From: Jiulongibacter sediminis
GTDB taxonomy: Bacteria; Bacteroidota; Bacteroidia; Cytophagales; Spirosomataceae
Direction: 5' to 3'
Length of the DNA stretch: 64,000 nucleotides
Assembly: GCF_001306455.1 (NCBI RefSeq)
Contig: NZ_LGTQ01000005.1
Span: forward strand, 682,001 to 746,000
Shown here one piece after another: positions 1 to 6,001 of the stretch (within the stretch, counting starts at the first letter, position 1; every line of letters starts with the position of its first letter). The notes beneath the pieces were generated by a model. It did not search any database, was not told the DNA's origin, and was given only the letters and a program-made list of their open reading frames with translations. The position numbers were made by a program, and so were the translations under genes.

Positions 1-929
1 GCCCAGCCATCAAAAAGCAAAGCGGCGAAACTGAGGAAAAGTAAAAAAGTACTGAACCTGATCAATTTTAATTCCCCATAAGCTTTTTTCTCCAGCCAAT
101 GAATCAAGGGCATTTCAAATACCACAATTAAAGCTCCGTTCAGAAAGAATAATAAGCCTGTATGAAATTCAGTTAATCCAAATTGTTCACTATGATAAAT
201 GGGCAATGTGGTGAAAATTTGGAAGAAAACCATTCCCACCAAAAAGCACACAGCCAAAAACTGCCAGTATACACCATCTTTGAAAACCTGTGCTTTCGTA
301 TTTAGCAAAGATGCCTCTGCCCTGCTTTGTTTTTCCGACTTTCTTTCAGGAACCGTTTTGATAAAGATCAAAATGGCCATGATGCAGCTTATACCATCAA
401 TCCAAAACAGCATATTATAACCTTGCGATACAATCAGCAAACCCGCCAGACTTGGCCCAATTACGAAACCAAGATTAAGGGCAAGACGAATCAAAGTCAA
501 AGAGCGGGTTCGATTCTCCGGTTTACTATATGCACCGAGTGAAACAAACATGGCCGGCCTGAAGGCATCGGCGATTGTCATCAGAATAAAAATACCGATG
601 CAAAGTCCCCAAAAAGAGTCTAGATATTGTAAAGCTATGAAGAGAAAACCTGAAGCCAAAAGGCTACCTACCATGACTTTGTAGTAGCCAATTTTATCTG
701 ATAGTCTACCGCCAAGCCAGGCACCAGCGAAAGACCCAATTCCAAAGAAAAACATGATCCACCCTACTTCTCCATAACTGAATTGAAGGTTTTCTTTCAA
801 ATATTTAGAAAGAAAAGGAATAACCATTGTTCCTGCCCTATTAATGAGTGACACAAGGGCGAGTATCCAAACTTCGTGTGATAAGCCACGAAAGGCGTCG
901 ACATAATGTTCATTAAAGAGTTTCTTCAT
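1..929 (-). CDS. MFS transporter, efflux type (C-terminus cut by window edge)
   Basis: About 309 codons are present, read leftward from the ATG at 927-929 and open to the window edge. The translation begins MKKLFNEHYVDAFRGL and is strongly hydrophobic with alternating membrane segments. Residues about 71-87 carry the MFS motif A pattern (GGRLSDKIGYYKVM) in the loop between helices 2 and 3. This fits a 12-helix DHA1-type drug or metabolite exporter of the inner membrane. The substrate cannot be read from the sequence. The gene lies 12 bases beyond the T-tract of an intrinsic terminator and downstream of a short leader ORF, so expression is probably controlled by attenuation rather than by readthrough from menD. 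The last helices are missing only because the window ends. Confidence 0.85.
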   Translation of the reverse strand, partial: MKKLFNEHYVDAFRGLSHEVWILALVSLINRAGTMVIPFLSKYLKENLQFSYGEVGWIMFFFGIGSFAGAWLGGRLSDKIGYYKVMVGSLLASGFLFIALQYLDSFWGLCIGIFILMTIADAFRPAMFVSLGAYSKPENRTRSLTLIRLALNLGFVIGPSLAGLLIVSQGYNMLFWIDGISCIMAILIFIKTVPERKSEKQSRAEASLLNTKAQVFKDGVYWQFLAVCFLVGMVFFQIFTTLPIYHSEQFGLTEFHTGLLFFLNGALIVVFEMPLIHWLEKKAYGELKLIRFSTFLLFLSFAALLFDGW

Positions 930-940
930 AACTAAAAAAC

Positions 941-966
941 AAAAAATCCGGCTCTAAGCCGGATCA
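941..966 (-). terminator. Intrinsic terminator in the MFS leader (candidate attenuator)
   Basis: On the minus strand a perfect 8-bp stem (ATCCGGCT / AGCCGGAT, plus-strand 946-964) with a 3-base loop is followed by TTTTTTGTTTTTT. The T-tract ends about 12 bases before the MFS start codon. The 5' arm region TGATCCGG (959-966) is also perfectly complementary to CCGGATCA inside the leader ORF (1004-1011), so two exclusive structures are possible. Confidence 0.85.
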
Positions 967-991
967 GTGAATGCCATATCTTTAGTGAAAA

Positions 992-1063
992 TTAGCACAC
1001 AAATGATCCGGTATTCCTTTGAGAATACTTTTCACAGACCATCATGTATGTCGCTGTTTTCAT
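992..1063 (-). CDS. 23-residue leader peptide ahead of the MFS gene
   Basis: A short leftward ORF begins ATG at 1063 and ends TAA at 992. The peptide begins MKTATYMM and ends GSFVC, with three Met, two Cys and two Tyr. It has no recognisable domain and is too short for an enzyme. Its codons ACC GGA TCA contain the sequence that can pair with the downstream terminator arm. A ribosome waiting at the stop codon would cover that segment (10-17 bases upstream of the stop). This arrangement is typical of leader peptides in ribosome-mediated attenuation. A TAnnTTTG promoter core ends 6 bases before the ATG. The identification as a translated peptide is inferred; I do not know a named family for it. 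Confidence 0.6.
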   Translation of the reverse strand: MKTATYMMVCEKYSQRNTGSFVC

Positions 1064-1069
1064 TTGGTA

Positions 1070-1077
1070 CAAAGCTA
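1070..1077 (-). promoter_or_regulatory. Promoter -7 element of the MFS leader
   Basis: Minus strand TAGCTTTG matches the Bacteroidota -7 consensus TAnnTTTG. It lies between the menD stop and the leader ATG, with only 6 bases (TACCAA) before the ATG, so the leader mRNA would have a very short 5' end. No good -33 TTTG is seen at 19-20 bases. Confidence 0.5.
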
Positions 1078-1098
1078 GTAAGAAATTCTTTTGAGCTG

Positions 1099-2760
1099 TT
1101 ATGACTCAAAAAACTTTTTGTACGAAAGCGTATTTAGCTCGTAATCAGTGAAAATCTCTAAAATTGATTTCTGATGACAAGTCAAAAATTTTCTTAAACC
1201 TTCCTCAATTTCTGAAGGAGAAGTGATTTTAAAGTAATCTAAACCATATTCCTGAGCTAAATAACTCGCCCTATTGGGCTGCATTGTTTTGAAATAATCC
1301 TCAAAAGAAGACTGATCTGAAGGTCCTTGAATCATATTGAAAATGATTCCACCGGAATTATTAAGGATGATAATCTTTAAATTATCAGGCAAATAGCGAT
1401 TCCAAAGGGCATTCTTGTCATATTGAAAACTCACATCTCCCAAAATACAATAGACCGGTTTGTCTGTTTTTAAAGCCTGACCAACCGCCGTACTCAGGCA
1501 CCCATCAATTCCACTGGTTCCGCGATTGCAATACACCTTGCAACCCGAAGGCAATACGGAATTCAAGGCATTGACATATCGAATACTCATGCTATTTCCT
1601 ACATGTAGAATGCAGTCTTCAGGTATTTTATGAAAGAGTTTTCTTAGAATATGGAACTCGGAGAATTCAGGTTTTTCAAAATATTGCCTTATTGAATCAG
1701 AGGACTTCTTTTCCAAGGACTTCCATCTTTCCTGATAATTCTCGTCATTAGACAGCCCATCAAAATTTAAAGTCTGTTGAAAAAACTCCAACGGAGTTAT
1801 TTCAACCTTTTTTGTGAGTGACCGGAAGGGGTCAATGAATGCAGGATTCGACTGAACATGCCAATGAGCCTGAATATCAAAACCTCTCAACATTAACTTC
1901 AAAGATTTCGAAATCAACGACATATCGGTGCTAATCAGCAAATCGGGACAAAGTGTTTGCTTTTCCTTATCAGAAAGCTTTTTAAGAAAATGATCCTGAT
2001 TTTTTATTCCACCACTGATATTCGAAATCGAGTCTGAAACAAGAATGAAACCAAACTTTCCAGCAAATTCCGATGCCAGTTTCCCTACTTCTTCATCATG
2101 CTGCTGGCCTACAACCAAAAGTCTTTTCGGGTACCTTCTCAGAGCTTTTAAAAAGCTGACTCCCTCAATTTCCGGCTTGAAAGCCTTCGGCTCTATCACT
2201 TTCCATGGATTCACATCTGTTTCCTCAAATCTGGATGGATAAAAGGGCTCACTAATAGGGATATTGATGTGAACAGGTCCTTTGGGGCTTCTTTGAGTAC
2301 TATTGAGGGCTTTATTCGAAACACTTTCTGCCTCCCTGAGTTTAGTATCTGATAAATCAGAAGACCATGAAAAAGCCTCTTTTACATGCTTGCCATAAAC
2401 ATTATCCTGAAATATTGTCTGACCGTCATATTGATGTATCCATTCCGGAGGCCTGTCAGCTGTGAGAACTAAAAGTGGAACTTCCTGAAAATAGGCTTCA
2501 GCCACTGCAGGGGCATAATTCAAAGCAGCTGTTCCCGAAGTGCAGATCAGTACAGTAGTTTTCCCCGTTTGAAGGGCCATTCCTATGGCCAAATAGCCGG
2601 CAGAGCGTTCATCTGATATACTGAAGCAGCTAAGCCCTTTTTGACCTGAAAAAGCTATCGTCAGAAGTGCATTTCGGCTTCCAGGACTGATGATTACATT
2701 TTCAACACCCTTTTCTAAACAGAGTCGGGCCAGTTGCCTGAACGGGGTTAATTTATCCAT
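1099..2760 (-). CDS. menD: MenD, SEPHCHC synthase
   Basis: Thiamine-diphosphate enzyme of menaquinone synthesis. It joins isochorismate and 2-oxoglutarate to make 2-succinyl-5-enolpyruvyl-6-hydroxy-3-cyclohexene-1-carboxylate. The 553 residues match the family length. Visible motifs are ISPGSRN near residue 24, DERSAG near 50 (with the glutamate that activates the cofactor), CTSGTA near 73, and the C-terminal cofactor/Mg motif LGDVSFQYDKNALW followed by NNSGG. The ATG start at 2760 lies just beyond the rpoD terminator, so the gene is transcribed separately from rpoD. Another menaquinone gene, menC, is about 20 kb away (22607-23692). Confidence 0.95.
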   Translation of the reverse strand: MDKLTPFRQLARLCLEKGVENVIISPGSRNALLTIAFSGQKGLSCFSISDERSAGYLAIGMALQTGKTTVLICTSGTAALNYAPAVAEAYFQEVPLLVLTADRPPEWIHQYDGQTIFQDNVYGKHVKEAFSWSSDLSDTKLREAESVSNKALNSTQRSPKGPVHINIPISEPFYPSRFEETDVNPWKVIEPKAFKPEIEGVSFLKALRRYPKRLLVVGQQHDEEVGKLASEFAGKFGFILVSDSISNISGGIKNQDHFLKKLSDKEKQTLCPDLLISTDMSLISKSLKLMLRGFDIQAHWHVQSNPAFIDPFRSLTKKVEITPLEFFQQTLNFDGLSNDENYQERWKSLEKKSSDSIRQYFEKPEFSEFHILRKLFHKIPEDCILHVGNSMSIRYVNALNSVLPSGCKVYCNRGTSGIDGCLSTAVGQALKTDKPVYCILGDVSFQYDKNALWNRYLPDNLKIIILNNSGGIIFNMIQGPSDQSSFEDYFKTMQPNRASYLAQEYGLDYFKITSPSEIEEGLRKFLTCHQKSILEIFTDYELNTLSYKKFFES

Positions 2761-2770
2761 AGATCATAAA

Positions 2771-2794
2771 AAAAGGCACCCGACTGGGTGCCTT
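2771..2794 (-). terminator. Terminator of rpoD
   Basis: Stem AAGGCACCC / GGGTGCCTT (2773-2781 with 2786-2794), 4-base loop, followed on the minus strand by a run of T. It lies in the 54-base gap between the rpoD stop and the menD start. Confidence 0.9.
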
Positions 2795-2814
2795 CAAATT
2801 TAGCCAATAAAATT

Positions 2815-3678
2815 TTATCCTAAATAGGCTTTCAAAGCTTTACTTCTTGAGGTTTGTCTCAATCTTCTGATGGCTTTTTCTTTGATCTGACGCACACGCT
2901 CACGAGTCAAATTGAACTTTTCGCCAATTTCCTCAAGCGTCATGGCCTGCTCACCATTCAGTCCGAAATAATACATAATAACCTCTGCTTCACGCTGCGT
3001 AAGAGTTGAAAGAGCTCTTAAAACTTCTCTTCTCAAAGAGTCATTCATTAGCTCCTGATCCGGCTTTTCTTCCAGATCATTCTCCAATACATCAAGAAGA
3101 CTGTTTTCTTCACCTTGTACGAAAGGTGCATCCACAGACACGTGACGGCCGGAGATTTTCATGGTGTCAACTACCTCGTTTGAAGTAATTTCAAGTACTT
3201 CTGCCAATTCTTCAGGTGAAGGCTCTCTCTCAAACTGCTGCTCCAATTCAGAAAACTTCTTGGAGATTTTGTTCAAAGAACCCACTCTGTTCAGAGGCAA
3301 ACGTACAATTCTTGATTGCTCAGCCAATGCTTGAAGAATTGACTGGCGAATCCACCATACAGCGTAAGAAATAAACTTGAAACCACGGGTTTCGTCAAAT
3401 CTCTGAGCAGCTTTAATTAATCCTAAATTACCTTCATTGATCAAATCACCTAGTGAAAGACCTTGATTTTGGTACTGCTTAGCTACTGAAACTACGAAAC
3501 GTAGGTTTGCTTTGGTAAGCCTTTCAAGAGACAGCTGATCTCCCTCTCTGATCTTCTGAGCAAGAGTTACTTCCTCATCCGGAGTCAGAAGGTCCACTTT
3601 ACCAATCTCCTGAAGGTACTTGTCTAACGACTGACTCTCACGATTGGTGATCTGCTTACTAATTTTTAGTTGTCTCAT
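2815..3678 (-). CDS. rpoD: Primary sigma factor RpoD/SigA (Bacteroidota short form)
   Basis: Housekeeping sigma factor of 287 residues. It starts directly at region 1.2 ([20 protein letters not shown]) and lacks region 1.1, as usual in Bacteroidota. Region 2 is complete: [37 protein letters not shown], and the -10-recognition segment [16 protein letters not shown]. Region 4.2 has the helix-turn-helix [20 protein letters not shown] near residues 246-265. This protein would read the TTTG / TAnnTTTG promoters found throughout the window. It sits downstream of rpsO and pnp with a 70-base gap and ends in a strong terminator. Confidence 0.97.
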
Positions 3679-3748
3679 ATTGCTTATTTATTAAAGAAAA
3701 TTCACTCGTTGGTTTAAGAACGACAATTAAACAACGTAATACACTGAA

Positions 3749-5911
3749 TTATTGTTCTTTTTTCTCTTCACCGTTTTGACTAAGCTTCGGTGGTCTAGGT
3801 AACAAAACTTTTCTGGAAAGTCTGAATTTACCCGTTTTCTTATCAACCTCTGTTAGTTTTACCTGAATTTCCTCTCCTACCTCAAGAACACCATCCATAG
3901 AAGGCAAACGCTCCCAGGTGATCTCTGAAATATGAAGAAGACCGTCTTTACCAGGTAAGAACTCACAGAAAGCCCCAAATGGCTGAATTGACTTCACTTT
4001 AGCATCATAAACTGTTCCTACTTCAGGAACAGCAACTATACCTTTAATACGGTTTTTAGCCATTTCCATGCTATCGCCATTGGTTGCAAAAATAGAAACG
4101 ATACCTTCGTTACCTACTTCTTCAATATTGACAGTGGCACCTGATTCACGCTGGATTTCCTGGATAATTTTACCACCTGGTCCGATTACCGCACCGATAA
4201 ACTCTCTGTCAATCTTCATGGTGAAGGCTCTTGGAGCATGAGGCTTCATATCTTCTCTTGGTTTTTCAAGAGCAGCCGTCATTTTACCAAGAATGTGTAA
4301 ACGACCGTCCTTTGCCTGATTCAGAGCTTGCTCTAAAATTTCAAAAGATAAGCCATCAACCTTGATATCCATCTGACAAGCAACGATACCTTTCTCAGTA
4401 CCAGTTACTTTAAAGTCCATGTCTCCAAGGTGATCTTCGTCTCCAAGAATATCAGACAAAACCGCCCATTTACCCGTTTCTGAGTCTGAAATAAGACCCA
4501 TAGCAATACCAGAAACTGGTGCTGAAATAGGGATACCGGCATCCATCAATGACAAACAACCCGCACATACGGTCGCCATTGAGGAAGAACCGTTTGACTC
4601 TAAAATATCAGAAACGATACGAACTGTATAAGGATTTGACTCATCTGGTGGCATCACTTTCGCCAATGAACGCTGGGCAAGGTTACCATGACCAATTTCA
4701 CGTCTACTGGCACCTCTGTTAGGCTTTACTTCACCAGTTGAGAAACCAGGGAAATTATAGTGCAAATAGAATCTTGAATATCCTGAATACATTGCCTGAT
4801 CGATCAATTGTTCGTCAAGCTTTGTACCTACAGTACAGGTAGATAACGATTGCGTTTCACCTCTAGTGAACAAAGCTGAACCATGTGCACCCGGTAGAAA
4901 ATCTACCTCACACTCAATTGGTCTGATTTCAGTCAATTGTCTTCCATCAAGTCTCTTCCTTTCATTAAGAACAAGGTCTCTTGAAGCTTTGTATTTCAGC
5001 TCACCGAAATACTTACCTATCAACATCATGGTGTCGTCATCGGCTTCTTCAGCGACGTAAGGCTCTTTGAAAGCATCGAGAATGGCTGCATAGCCTTCTT
5101 TTCTTTCATTTTTATTGGCAGAGCCCTTTGCTCCAACAGCATAAACCTGATCATAAAGCTCTGAGAATATTTTCTCTTTAAGCTCTTCATTATGAATTTC
5201 GTGAGAGTATTCTCTTTTTTCCAATGACCCAACAGCCTTAGCCAGTTCAACCTGAGCCGCAACCTGCTTTTTGATGGCTTCGTGACCGATTTTGATAGCT
5301 TCGATCATTTCAAGTTCAGAAACCTCATTGGCTTCGCCCTCAACCATGTTGATGTTCTCAGAAGTACCTGCTATGATAAGGTCTAATGAAGCTCCCGTAA
5401 GAGCTGATTTATCAGGATTAACTACATATTCGCCATTTATTTTAGCGACTCTAACCTCTGAAACTGGGCCGTTAAAAGGAATATCTGATACCGCAAGAGC
5501 TGCAGATGCTGCTAAGGCTGCAAGAGCATCAGGGGCCACTTCAGGGTCTGAAGAAACCATGCTGATCATCACCTGTACGTCTGCATGATAATCATCAGGG
5601 AAAATCGGACGAAGTGCTCTGTCTACTAATCTACTGATGAGAATTTCGTTATCTGAAAGTCTTCCTTCTCTTCTTTGGAAACTTCCCGGAATTTTACCGG
5701 CTGAAGCGAATTTTTCCTGATAATCGACAGAAAGTGGAAGGAAATCAACGCCGTCTTTGGCGTTTTTTGCTGCTACCACAGTGGCGAGTAGCATTGCGTT
5801 ACCACATCTTAAAACCACTGCACCGTCGGCCTGACGAGCTAATTTACCGGTCTCTAATGTGATGTCTTTACCACCCGGCATTGGGATGGTTTGAGAATGA
5901 ATGTTAAACAT
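3749..5911 (-). CDS. pnp: Polynucleotide phosphorylase
   Basis: 3'-5' exoribonuclease that phosphorolyses RNA in mRNA decay. The 720 residues show the normal order: first RNase PH domain (about 10-140), helical linker, second RNase PH domain (about 325-530), KH domain ([15 protein letters not shown] near 567) and S1 domain ([20 protein letters not shown] near 635). The tail is charged and rich in K and E. It lies just downstream of rpsO, the classic rpsO-pnp neighbourhood, but a strong terminator separates the two, so pnp probably has its own promoter or depends on readthrough. Confidence 0.97.
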
Positions 5912-6001
5912 CTGGTTAATTTAATTGTATCGCATTTGCCGCTTTCGATGCGATGATTTGATCCTGTATTCCGCGGGGATATTGTTGCTGTGCTTTTAAC
6001 C

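Follow-up and report, generated by a model that had tools for sequence, protein, structure and literature searches.

Most of the leader peptides known to sense antibiotics come from Gram-positive bacteria. In the trp-type attenuators, three alternative pairings (1:2, 2:3 and 3:4) are available to the leader RNA, and a ribosome that has reached the stop codon covers segment 2. Among systems closest to the one described here, the mef(E)/mel attenuator of Streptococcus places a leader peptide (MTASMRLR), an intrinsic terminator and an antiterminator before an MFS drug exporter, and a stalled ribosome allows read-through (PMC4335068). The bmrB-bmrCD system of Bacillus subtilis, which is induced by ribosome-targeting drugs, likewise carries a translated small ORF and alternative stem-loops before a drug exporter (PMC4191407), and in the msrD leader, MsrDL, a drug-stalled leader ribosome prevents the intrinsic terminator (PMC10314930). 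For Bacteroidota, the only precedents that we found are the tetQ leader of Bacteroides, a drug-resistance leader whose control a review places at translation (PMC5418344), and unvalidated candidates, namely small ORFs in 5' UTRs of B. thetaiotaomicron, which are described as reminiscent of attenuation leaders and still to be validated (PMC7366714). According to the authors of PMC2965389, no regular leader-peptide system had, to their knowledge, been demonstrated beyond Proteobacteria and Actinobacteria, and words in Bacteroid- or Flavobact- are absent from the main text of that paper; PMC4833913 includes Bacteroidetes among the groups whose leader genes it counts, and uses neither the word transporter nor the word antibiotic. 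In a literature search with poor coverage of subscription journals and preprints, none of the papers listed described the leader reported here.

The present leader lies near one edge of the window, by which we mean the whole stretch of 64,000 nucleotides of Jiulongibacter sediminis DNA that was analysed, and is read, at a probability of about 0.8, as a ribosome-mediated transcription attenuator controlling an MFS exporter. It resembles the trp-type leaders in having segment 2 inside the ORF and differs from them in holding no repeated codons of one amino acid, through which those leaders sense charged tRNA. In function, it would resemble the attenuators of mef(E)/mel and bmrBCD. The mef(E)/mel leader is 327 nt long, encodes an 8-residue peptide, has its antiterminator strand immediately behind the peptide ORF and belongs to a Gram-positive host, whereas the present leaders measure approximately 125–145 nt, have ORFs of about 25 codons that contain the antiterminator strand, and occur in Bacteroidota (PMC4335068). 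The bmrB-bmrCD system differs in its 53-aa ORF, which contains the terminator, in its ABC exporter and in its Gram-positive host (PMC4191407), and MsrDL differs in preceding an ABC-F gene, in its specific macrolide stall peptide and in belonging to Streptococcus (PMC10314930). The tetQ leader comes from the same phylum, but is placed under translational control, as opposed to the transcription termination proposed here (PMC5418344).

On the minus strand of the window, the leader opens with a -7-like promoter element, TAGCTTTG (1076-1069), read in the sequence as the TAnnTTTG type whose consensus for Bacteroidota is given in PMC7366714; by eye, no good -33 element was seen in the window. The -7 element ends only 5 nt ahead of the leader ATG, with almost no 5' UTR between them, and the window's leader ORF would therefore be nearly leaderless. 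This ORF of 23 codons, from the ATG at 1063 to the stop TAA at 992, encodes the peptide MKTATYMMVCEKYSQRNTGSFVC and has equivalents at 47 other loci. In the predicted MFE structure of the ribosome-free leader, segment 1 (GATGGTCTG, codons 7-10, 1043-1035) pairs with 1010-1002, which overlaps segment 2, and predicted folds also contain a hairpin within the ORF, P1 (GTATTCT CAAA GGAATAC, 1028-1011), of which TATTC...GAATA is present as well in the three nearest relatives (G001, G022 and G035). Segment 2, the antiterminator strand CCGGATCA (1011-1004), pairs fully with segment 3, TGATCCGG (966-959), which is common to the antiterminator and the terminator. The intrinsic terminator, GATCCGGCT TAG AGCCGGATT (965-945), has a stem of 9 bp, including 5 G-C, and a 3-nt loop, is followed by the T-tract TTTTGTTTTTT (944-934), as read in the sequence, and is separated from the exporter ATG by a gap of 15 nt. 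The -7 element, the 23-codon ORF and the terminator with its T-tract had been listed in an earlier note on this DNA, and all are there on the minus strand, save that the stem has 9 bp and not 8. The perfect complementarity that the same note had reported between a segment of the ORF and the terminator's 5' arm was likewise borne out: the duplex, at -14.6 kcal/mol, is matched by shuffles of the ORF 3' half at p ~0.004 (5,000 shuffles) and, when judged over the whole leader, at p ~0.01. As a whole, the 139-nt leader is much more stable than its own shuffles (z -4.1, 0/200).

The gene behind the leader starts at the ATG at 929 and runs to position 1 and past the window edge (minus strand); it is intact and encodes 400 aa in all. 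The product, probably a drug exporter, matches Pfam MFS_1 (E 8.9e-64) and falls below every cut-off among the best 25 of 33 NCBIfam families (top TIGR00900, E 2e-19), and its relatives with solved structures include NorA (best E 5.1e-5) and the MFS transporter 3wdo (3e-6).

In the mechanism that we propose, transcription would begin just ahead of the leader ORF. With undelayed translation, the ribosome would cover segment 2 near the stop codon, segment 3 would be left free, and the terminator would form and halt transcription before the exporter. A ribosome stalled or lagging in about the first 14 codons would leave segment 2 exposed, and its pairing with segment 3 would block the terminator and allow the exporter to be transcribed. 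Ribosome positions were modelled at 23 loci by removing the RNA that a ribosome would cover, on the assumption that its footprint reaches 11 nt beyond the A-site codon, and then folding the nascent transcript as far as the last base of the terminator 5' arm. In this model, the arm was at least half paired with the A site at codons 9-13 in 20 of the 23 loci, and arm pairing was 0.4 or lower by codon 18 in 19 of those 20; the exceptions, L003, L004 and L005, had partial arm pairing of 0.3-0.5, falling to 0-0.3 near the ORF end. Modelled arm pairing falls only at codon 22 in L163, climbs back to 0.6 in L178, climbs again to 0.4 in the window with the ribosome at codons 19-24, and is only about 0.2-0.6 in G001, G022 and G035. 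Without a ribosome, several leaders are predicted to self-fold into the 1:2 form, in which early codons pair with the last codons and the stop, and the terminator is left free; the untranslated leader of the window, like some others, is predicted also to favour the antiterminator (0.75), and because of this, together with the renewed rise at codons 19-24, the effect of removing the start codon would not be clear-cut. The model gives a classical attenuator, in which a ribosome held in codons 2-14 would sequester the terminator arm and one further on would mostly free it.

Relatives were first sought in 59 genomes, the window's own included. The closest other exporters, 63-68% identical, are those of G001 (same genus) and of G022 and G035 (same family), and in all three a short ORF and a terminator stand immediately ahead of the exporter; a search of the 59 genomes with the leader DNA matched, besides the window, only G001 at the locus, with weak matches elsewhere in G023 and G038. 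A profile of the four exporters was used for wider searches. Within the window's family, 83 of 222 genomes match it at E <= 1e-90, only those four score below 1e-200, and the more distant exporters are 36-45% identical; in the upstream regions of these distant exporters that were scanned, no such leader-terminator unit was found. A terminator does lie 31-32 nt ahead of the ATG at L008/L133 and L021, in L008 behind an upstream gene. Among the 80 best relatives from named genomes, mostly Flavobacterium and other Flavobacteriaceae but including three metagenome bins whose titles, Bifidobacterium or Chitinophaga, may be wrong, the leader is present in eight, a terminator within 80 nt of the exporter start is missing in 71, and one is truncated by a contig end. 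The exporter occurs in 22 of 397 genomes of the family of Winogradskyella endarachnes (E <= 1e-130), of which 15 have the leader, one has it broken (L172) and six lack it; in the genus of this species it occurs in 31 of 68 genomes (E <= 1e-120), with the leader at all 30 loci fetched, five of them duplicates of loci already in the set. After identical proteins were dropped, 48 distinct loci remained, four from the family of the window and 44 from Flavobacteriaceae, and at all of them the layout precedes orthologous exporters. Exporter homologues were also seen on large plasmids, NZ_AP025308.1 and CP012860.1, of Aureibacter and Persicobacter (48% and 44% identity).

The layout is constant in most of its parts. 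A TAnnTTTG element precedes the ORF at 41 of the 48 loci and TAnnTTTA at five, with neither at L003 and L162; the ORF has 22-27 codons at 47 loci, and 23-32 nt separate its stop from the stem at 46. The start context of the leader is A-rich, with A at -3 in 73% and at -1 in 88%, against 42% overall, and A at -3 promotes initiation in Flavobacterium johnsoniae (PMC6847099). Among close relatives of L168 the switch appears to be decaying: in L170 (1346-1482) the ORF is cut to 15 codons, near an A-run, and L172 has no recognisable leader ORF and a broken terminator. A covariance model (R1), built from the terminator pairs alone of 19 of the 48 leaders, was run on 23 genomes for other leader-bearing genes; among the matches listed, the 17 best sit directly before the exporter by coordinates, and the eight weaker ones inspected (L219, L220, L223, L225-L228 and L231) are unlike the leader and mostly ordinary gene ends. 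These matches include neither the window genome's own leader nor that of G640, and further copies are possible. In L225 (G337), one of the weak matches, the terminator lies 27 nt before a gene, behind another gene on the same strand; at its start, the gene that follows resembles a glycerol kinase.

Pairing was examined in an alignment of 22 diverse leaders of the 48, for which only the sequences were used. For the terminator, 90% of cells are paired and 39 cells are changed on both sides (0/500 shuffles as high), and 6 of its 12 column pairs are altered on both sides (11/500). The antiterminator, which shares six of the terminator columns, pairs in 80% of cells as against 33-49% after one-column slides; two-sided changes occur in 5 of 6 pairs, the numbers of changed pairs and of changed cells each being reached by 20/500 shuffles, and its covariation score is 0.372 versus 0.264 shuffled (0/500). 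The column pairs of the 1:2 helix and the P1 helix show no significant covariation in the column test. An alignment-independent test, in which the ORF 3' half was paired with its own or foreign terminator arms at 19 of the 48 loci, the arms all being different, gave -9.02 kcal/mol for own and -6.41 for permuted arms (z -5.3, 0/20,000 permutations as good), statistics that ignore kinship among the 19 loci; the controls were null, with z 0.04 for the ORF 5' half and 0.49 for the spacer. Only five of the 19 leaders (L002, L160, L162, L163 and L178) bind their own arm better than every other, and in L003 16 foreign arms outbind the own one. A matched change is seen in L178: against GTCCGA (arm) and TCGGAC (leader) in its neighbours, it carries GTCTGA and TCAGAC. 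The duplex reaches -7 kcal/mol at 44 of the 48 loci, all but G001, G022, G035 and L170, and 16 of the 48 individually beat their own shuffles at p<0.05; G001, G022 and G035 have weak duplexes of segments 2 and 3 (-2.1, -5.2 and -4.3 kcal/mol), none of them better than shuffles. Of the pairing across relatives that the earlier note had named as a check, the terminator and an equivalent antiterminator thus co-vary in the wider set, while the exact pairing is weak in these three nearest relatives.

Taken by features of sequence, the locus has what defines a ribosome-mediated attenuator: an intrinsic terminator between the promoter and the structural gene; a mutually exclusive antiterminator sharing the terminator 5' arm, in the set and in the window, although weak in G001, G022, G035 and L170; and a short ORF of conserved frame that overlaps the switching segments, without third-position excess. 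The conserved layout, the co-varying terminator and antiterminator, the maintained frame and a folding model that yields the states are computationally shown. The competition between antiterminator and terminator, with a role for the ribosome, that the earlier note had set out is supported by the leader ORFs in relatives, the pairing tests and the modelled ribosome positions. We further infer translation of the ORF, a stall as the signal, a ribosome-targeting drug as the source of this signal, and removal of that drug by the exporter.

Of the other readings, the one that survives best, and which we nevertheless judge unlikely, is a translation-independent RNA switch that senses a ligand or a protein, with the ORF incidental. 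Some of the evidence on it comes from 26 ORFs of one type. These have constant length and no indels, and internal stops occur in 0/26 in frame versus 20/26 and 25/26 in the other frames. Lys9 (AAG, AAA; once Arg, AGG) and Gln10 (CAA, CAG, 24/26) are mostly retained despite codon changes. The differences per pair by codon position, however, are 4.3, 5.6 and 4.5, with no excess at the third, which speaks against a classical coding signal. Amino acids are weakly conserved across the leader peptides, and blocks such as AGATAT and TATCTATTGTA are invariant at the nucleotide level in 26/26, synonymous sites included, both of which, with the ribosome-free self-folding modelled for several leaders, would suit an RNA sensor; RNA pairing could explain the invariant blocks. 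Against it stand the maintenance of frame, start, stop and length, the retention of Lys9 and Gln10, the placement of segment 2 within the stretch that a ribosome standing at the stop codon would occupy, and the lack of Rfam matches at gathering cut-offs in window positions 1-6000 and in nine related loci. In the attenuator reading, the leader ORF would be translated, and read-through would follow the position of the ribosome.

Translational attenuation, in which a hairpin hides the region of the exporter start as in erm and tetQ leaders, is considerably less probable. The stem lies 12-28 nt ahead of the exporter ATG at 40 of the 47 loci measured, and the tetQ leader of Bacteroides is indeed controlled at translation (PMC5418344), but at the remaining 7 of 47 the distance is 63-103 nt and in L049 further still, and the stem and T-tract are kept even there.

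Equally slight is the probability of an amino-acid starvation attenuator, responding to Met, Cys or Tyr or to Lys/Gln. The sequence YMMVC is common to the window and G001, and 18 of 19 diverse peptides carry Lys or Arg somewhere in codons 8-13; yet none of the 48 peptides has the long run of one amino acid that marks an amino-acid attenuator, and the target is an exporter and not a biosynthetic gene. MMVC is confined to the window and G001 among the 48, and in codons 8-13 of the 19 diverse peptides Lys and Arg make up 27%, Met 3%, Cys 8% and Tyr 8%, figures that speak against the shortage of Met, Cys or Tyr put forward as an inducer by the earlier note. The pattern YMMVC.[KR]YS, with up to 3 mismatches, matched in 6 of 150 family genomes, exactly only in the window and G001 and with 3 mismatches in the other four, and a reversed control pattern also matched some genomes. 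Nor is there a conserved end of the GSFVC type, since relatives end in TTSYV, NCVQG, ADKRV, THYLL and others. Beyond its basic residue in codons 8-13 and the Ser that 16/19 have at position 14 or 15, the codon of which also belongs to hairpin P1, the peptide appears lightly constrained, and a sensor of slowed or blocked ribosomes therefore fits better than one of a single amino acid. As a drug-stall signature, the positions of the basic residue and Ser are only suggestive. Macrolide leaders of the mef(E)L/ErmDL type carry a short +X+ arrest motif such as RLR; [KR]X[KR] occurs anywhere in 9 of the 19 diverse peptides, within codons 6-15 in 3, and is absent from the window's peptide, and with so inconsistent a pattern the leader was not placed in that class. 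As the earlier note also proposed, the attenuator may be induced by a translation inhibitor, and a ribosome-blocking drug is our best guess at the inducer.

Hardly credible is the view that the terminator merely ends the upstream neighbour menD (2760-1099, minus strand; TIGR00173 above its cut-off; outside the switch), with the MFS gene expressed on its own or by read-through and the small ORF a matter of chance: the sigma-factor gene has an ordinary-looking terminator similarly placed before menD (2795-2772, 11 nt ahead of its ATG) and terminator-like sites are frequent (32 in the first 20 kb of the window versus 16.5 in shuffles), but the -7 element sits in between, the terminator and antiterminator co-vary, G022 and G035 keep the leader and terminator behind genes other than menD, and, among the 43 loci compared, 38 of the 39 of Flavobacteriaceae have one and the same gene family next upstream on the opposite strand, where the terminator cannot end that gene and points only at the exporter. 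On the upstream genes, the role of the terminator as the end of menD was rejected. Since menD shows the same placement, a terminator just before a start codon is by itself weak evidence. The terminator at 2795-2772 probably ends the sigma-factor gene; it leaves no promoter room before menD, which may be expressed by read-through or from a start further upstream. The divergent neighbour of the Flavobacteriaceae loci we take, by eye, to be a small lipoprotein-like gene, and a presumed CrcB-like gene lies beside the unit at 30 of the 39; both neighbours persist also where the exporter seems to have been exchanged.

The attenuator and its exporter appear to have a mobile history. In an exporter tree of 87 rows with a midpoint root, L163, a member of the Flavobacteriaceae set, clusters with the window, G001, G022 and G035 (98/91), and this cluster falls within a larger group that bears the leader (100/99). 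One side of the tree is made up of 11 distant exporters from the family and order of the window (100/100). Long-branch flags fall on the window, G035 and several others, and 5 changes are needed to explain the leader label. Exporter and leader have probably moved together between families. Within the Winogradskyella genus, comparisons of hand-picked pairs suggest that the two seem to recombine independently. L055 and L198 are 96% identical in the leader and 95% in the promoter but only 50% in the protein, and four chosen pairs among L055, L198, L181, L197, L200, L184 and L196 have leaders 91-96% and exporters only 47-50% identical; for L055 and L057 the values are 94% for the protein and 83% for the leader, and L185 and L186 have the reverse pattern, with 85% for the protein and 65% for the leader. 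L055 and L198 share flanking gene families on both sides, which suggests replacement in place. A broader proposal, which we hold tentatively and at less than even odds, would have the leader sense blocked translation generically and form a stable cassette, behind which differing exporters are swapped by recombination near the leader/CDS junction and which moves with an exporter between families, and would make it a drug-exporter attenuator of Bacteroidota for which the papers listed in our literature search gave no earlier description.

That the leader is retained ahead of exporters that have been exchanged suggests that what is conserved is the regulation and not the substrate. The leader recurs in two families of a phylum whose mRNAs are naturally devoid of Shine-Dalgarno sequences (PMC6847099). 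If the attenuator reading is true, transcription and translation in Bacteroidota would be coupled closely enough for attenuation, and the leader would point to a ribosome-targeting compound handled by the exporter.
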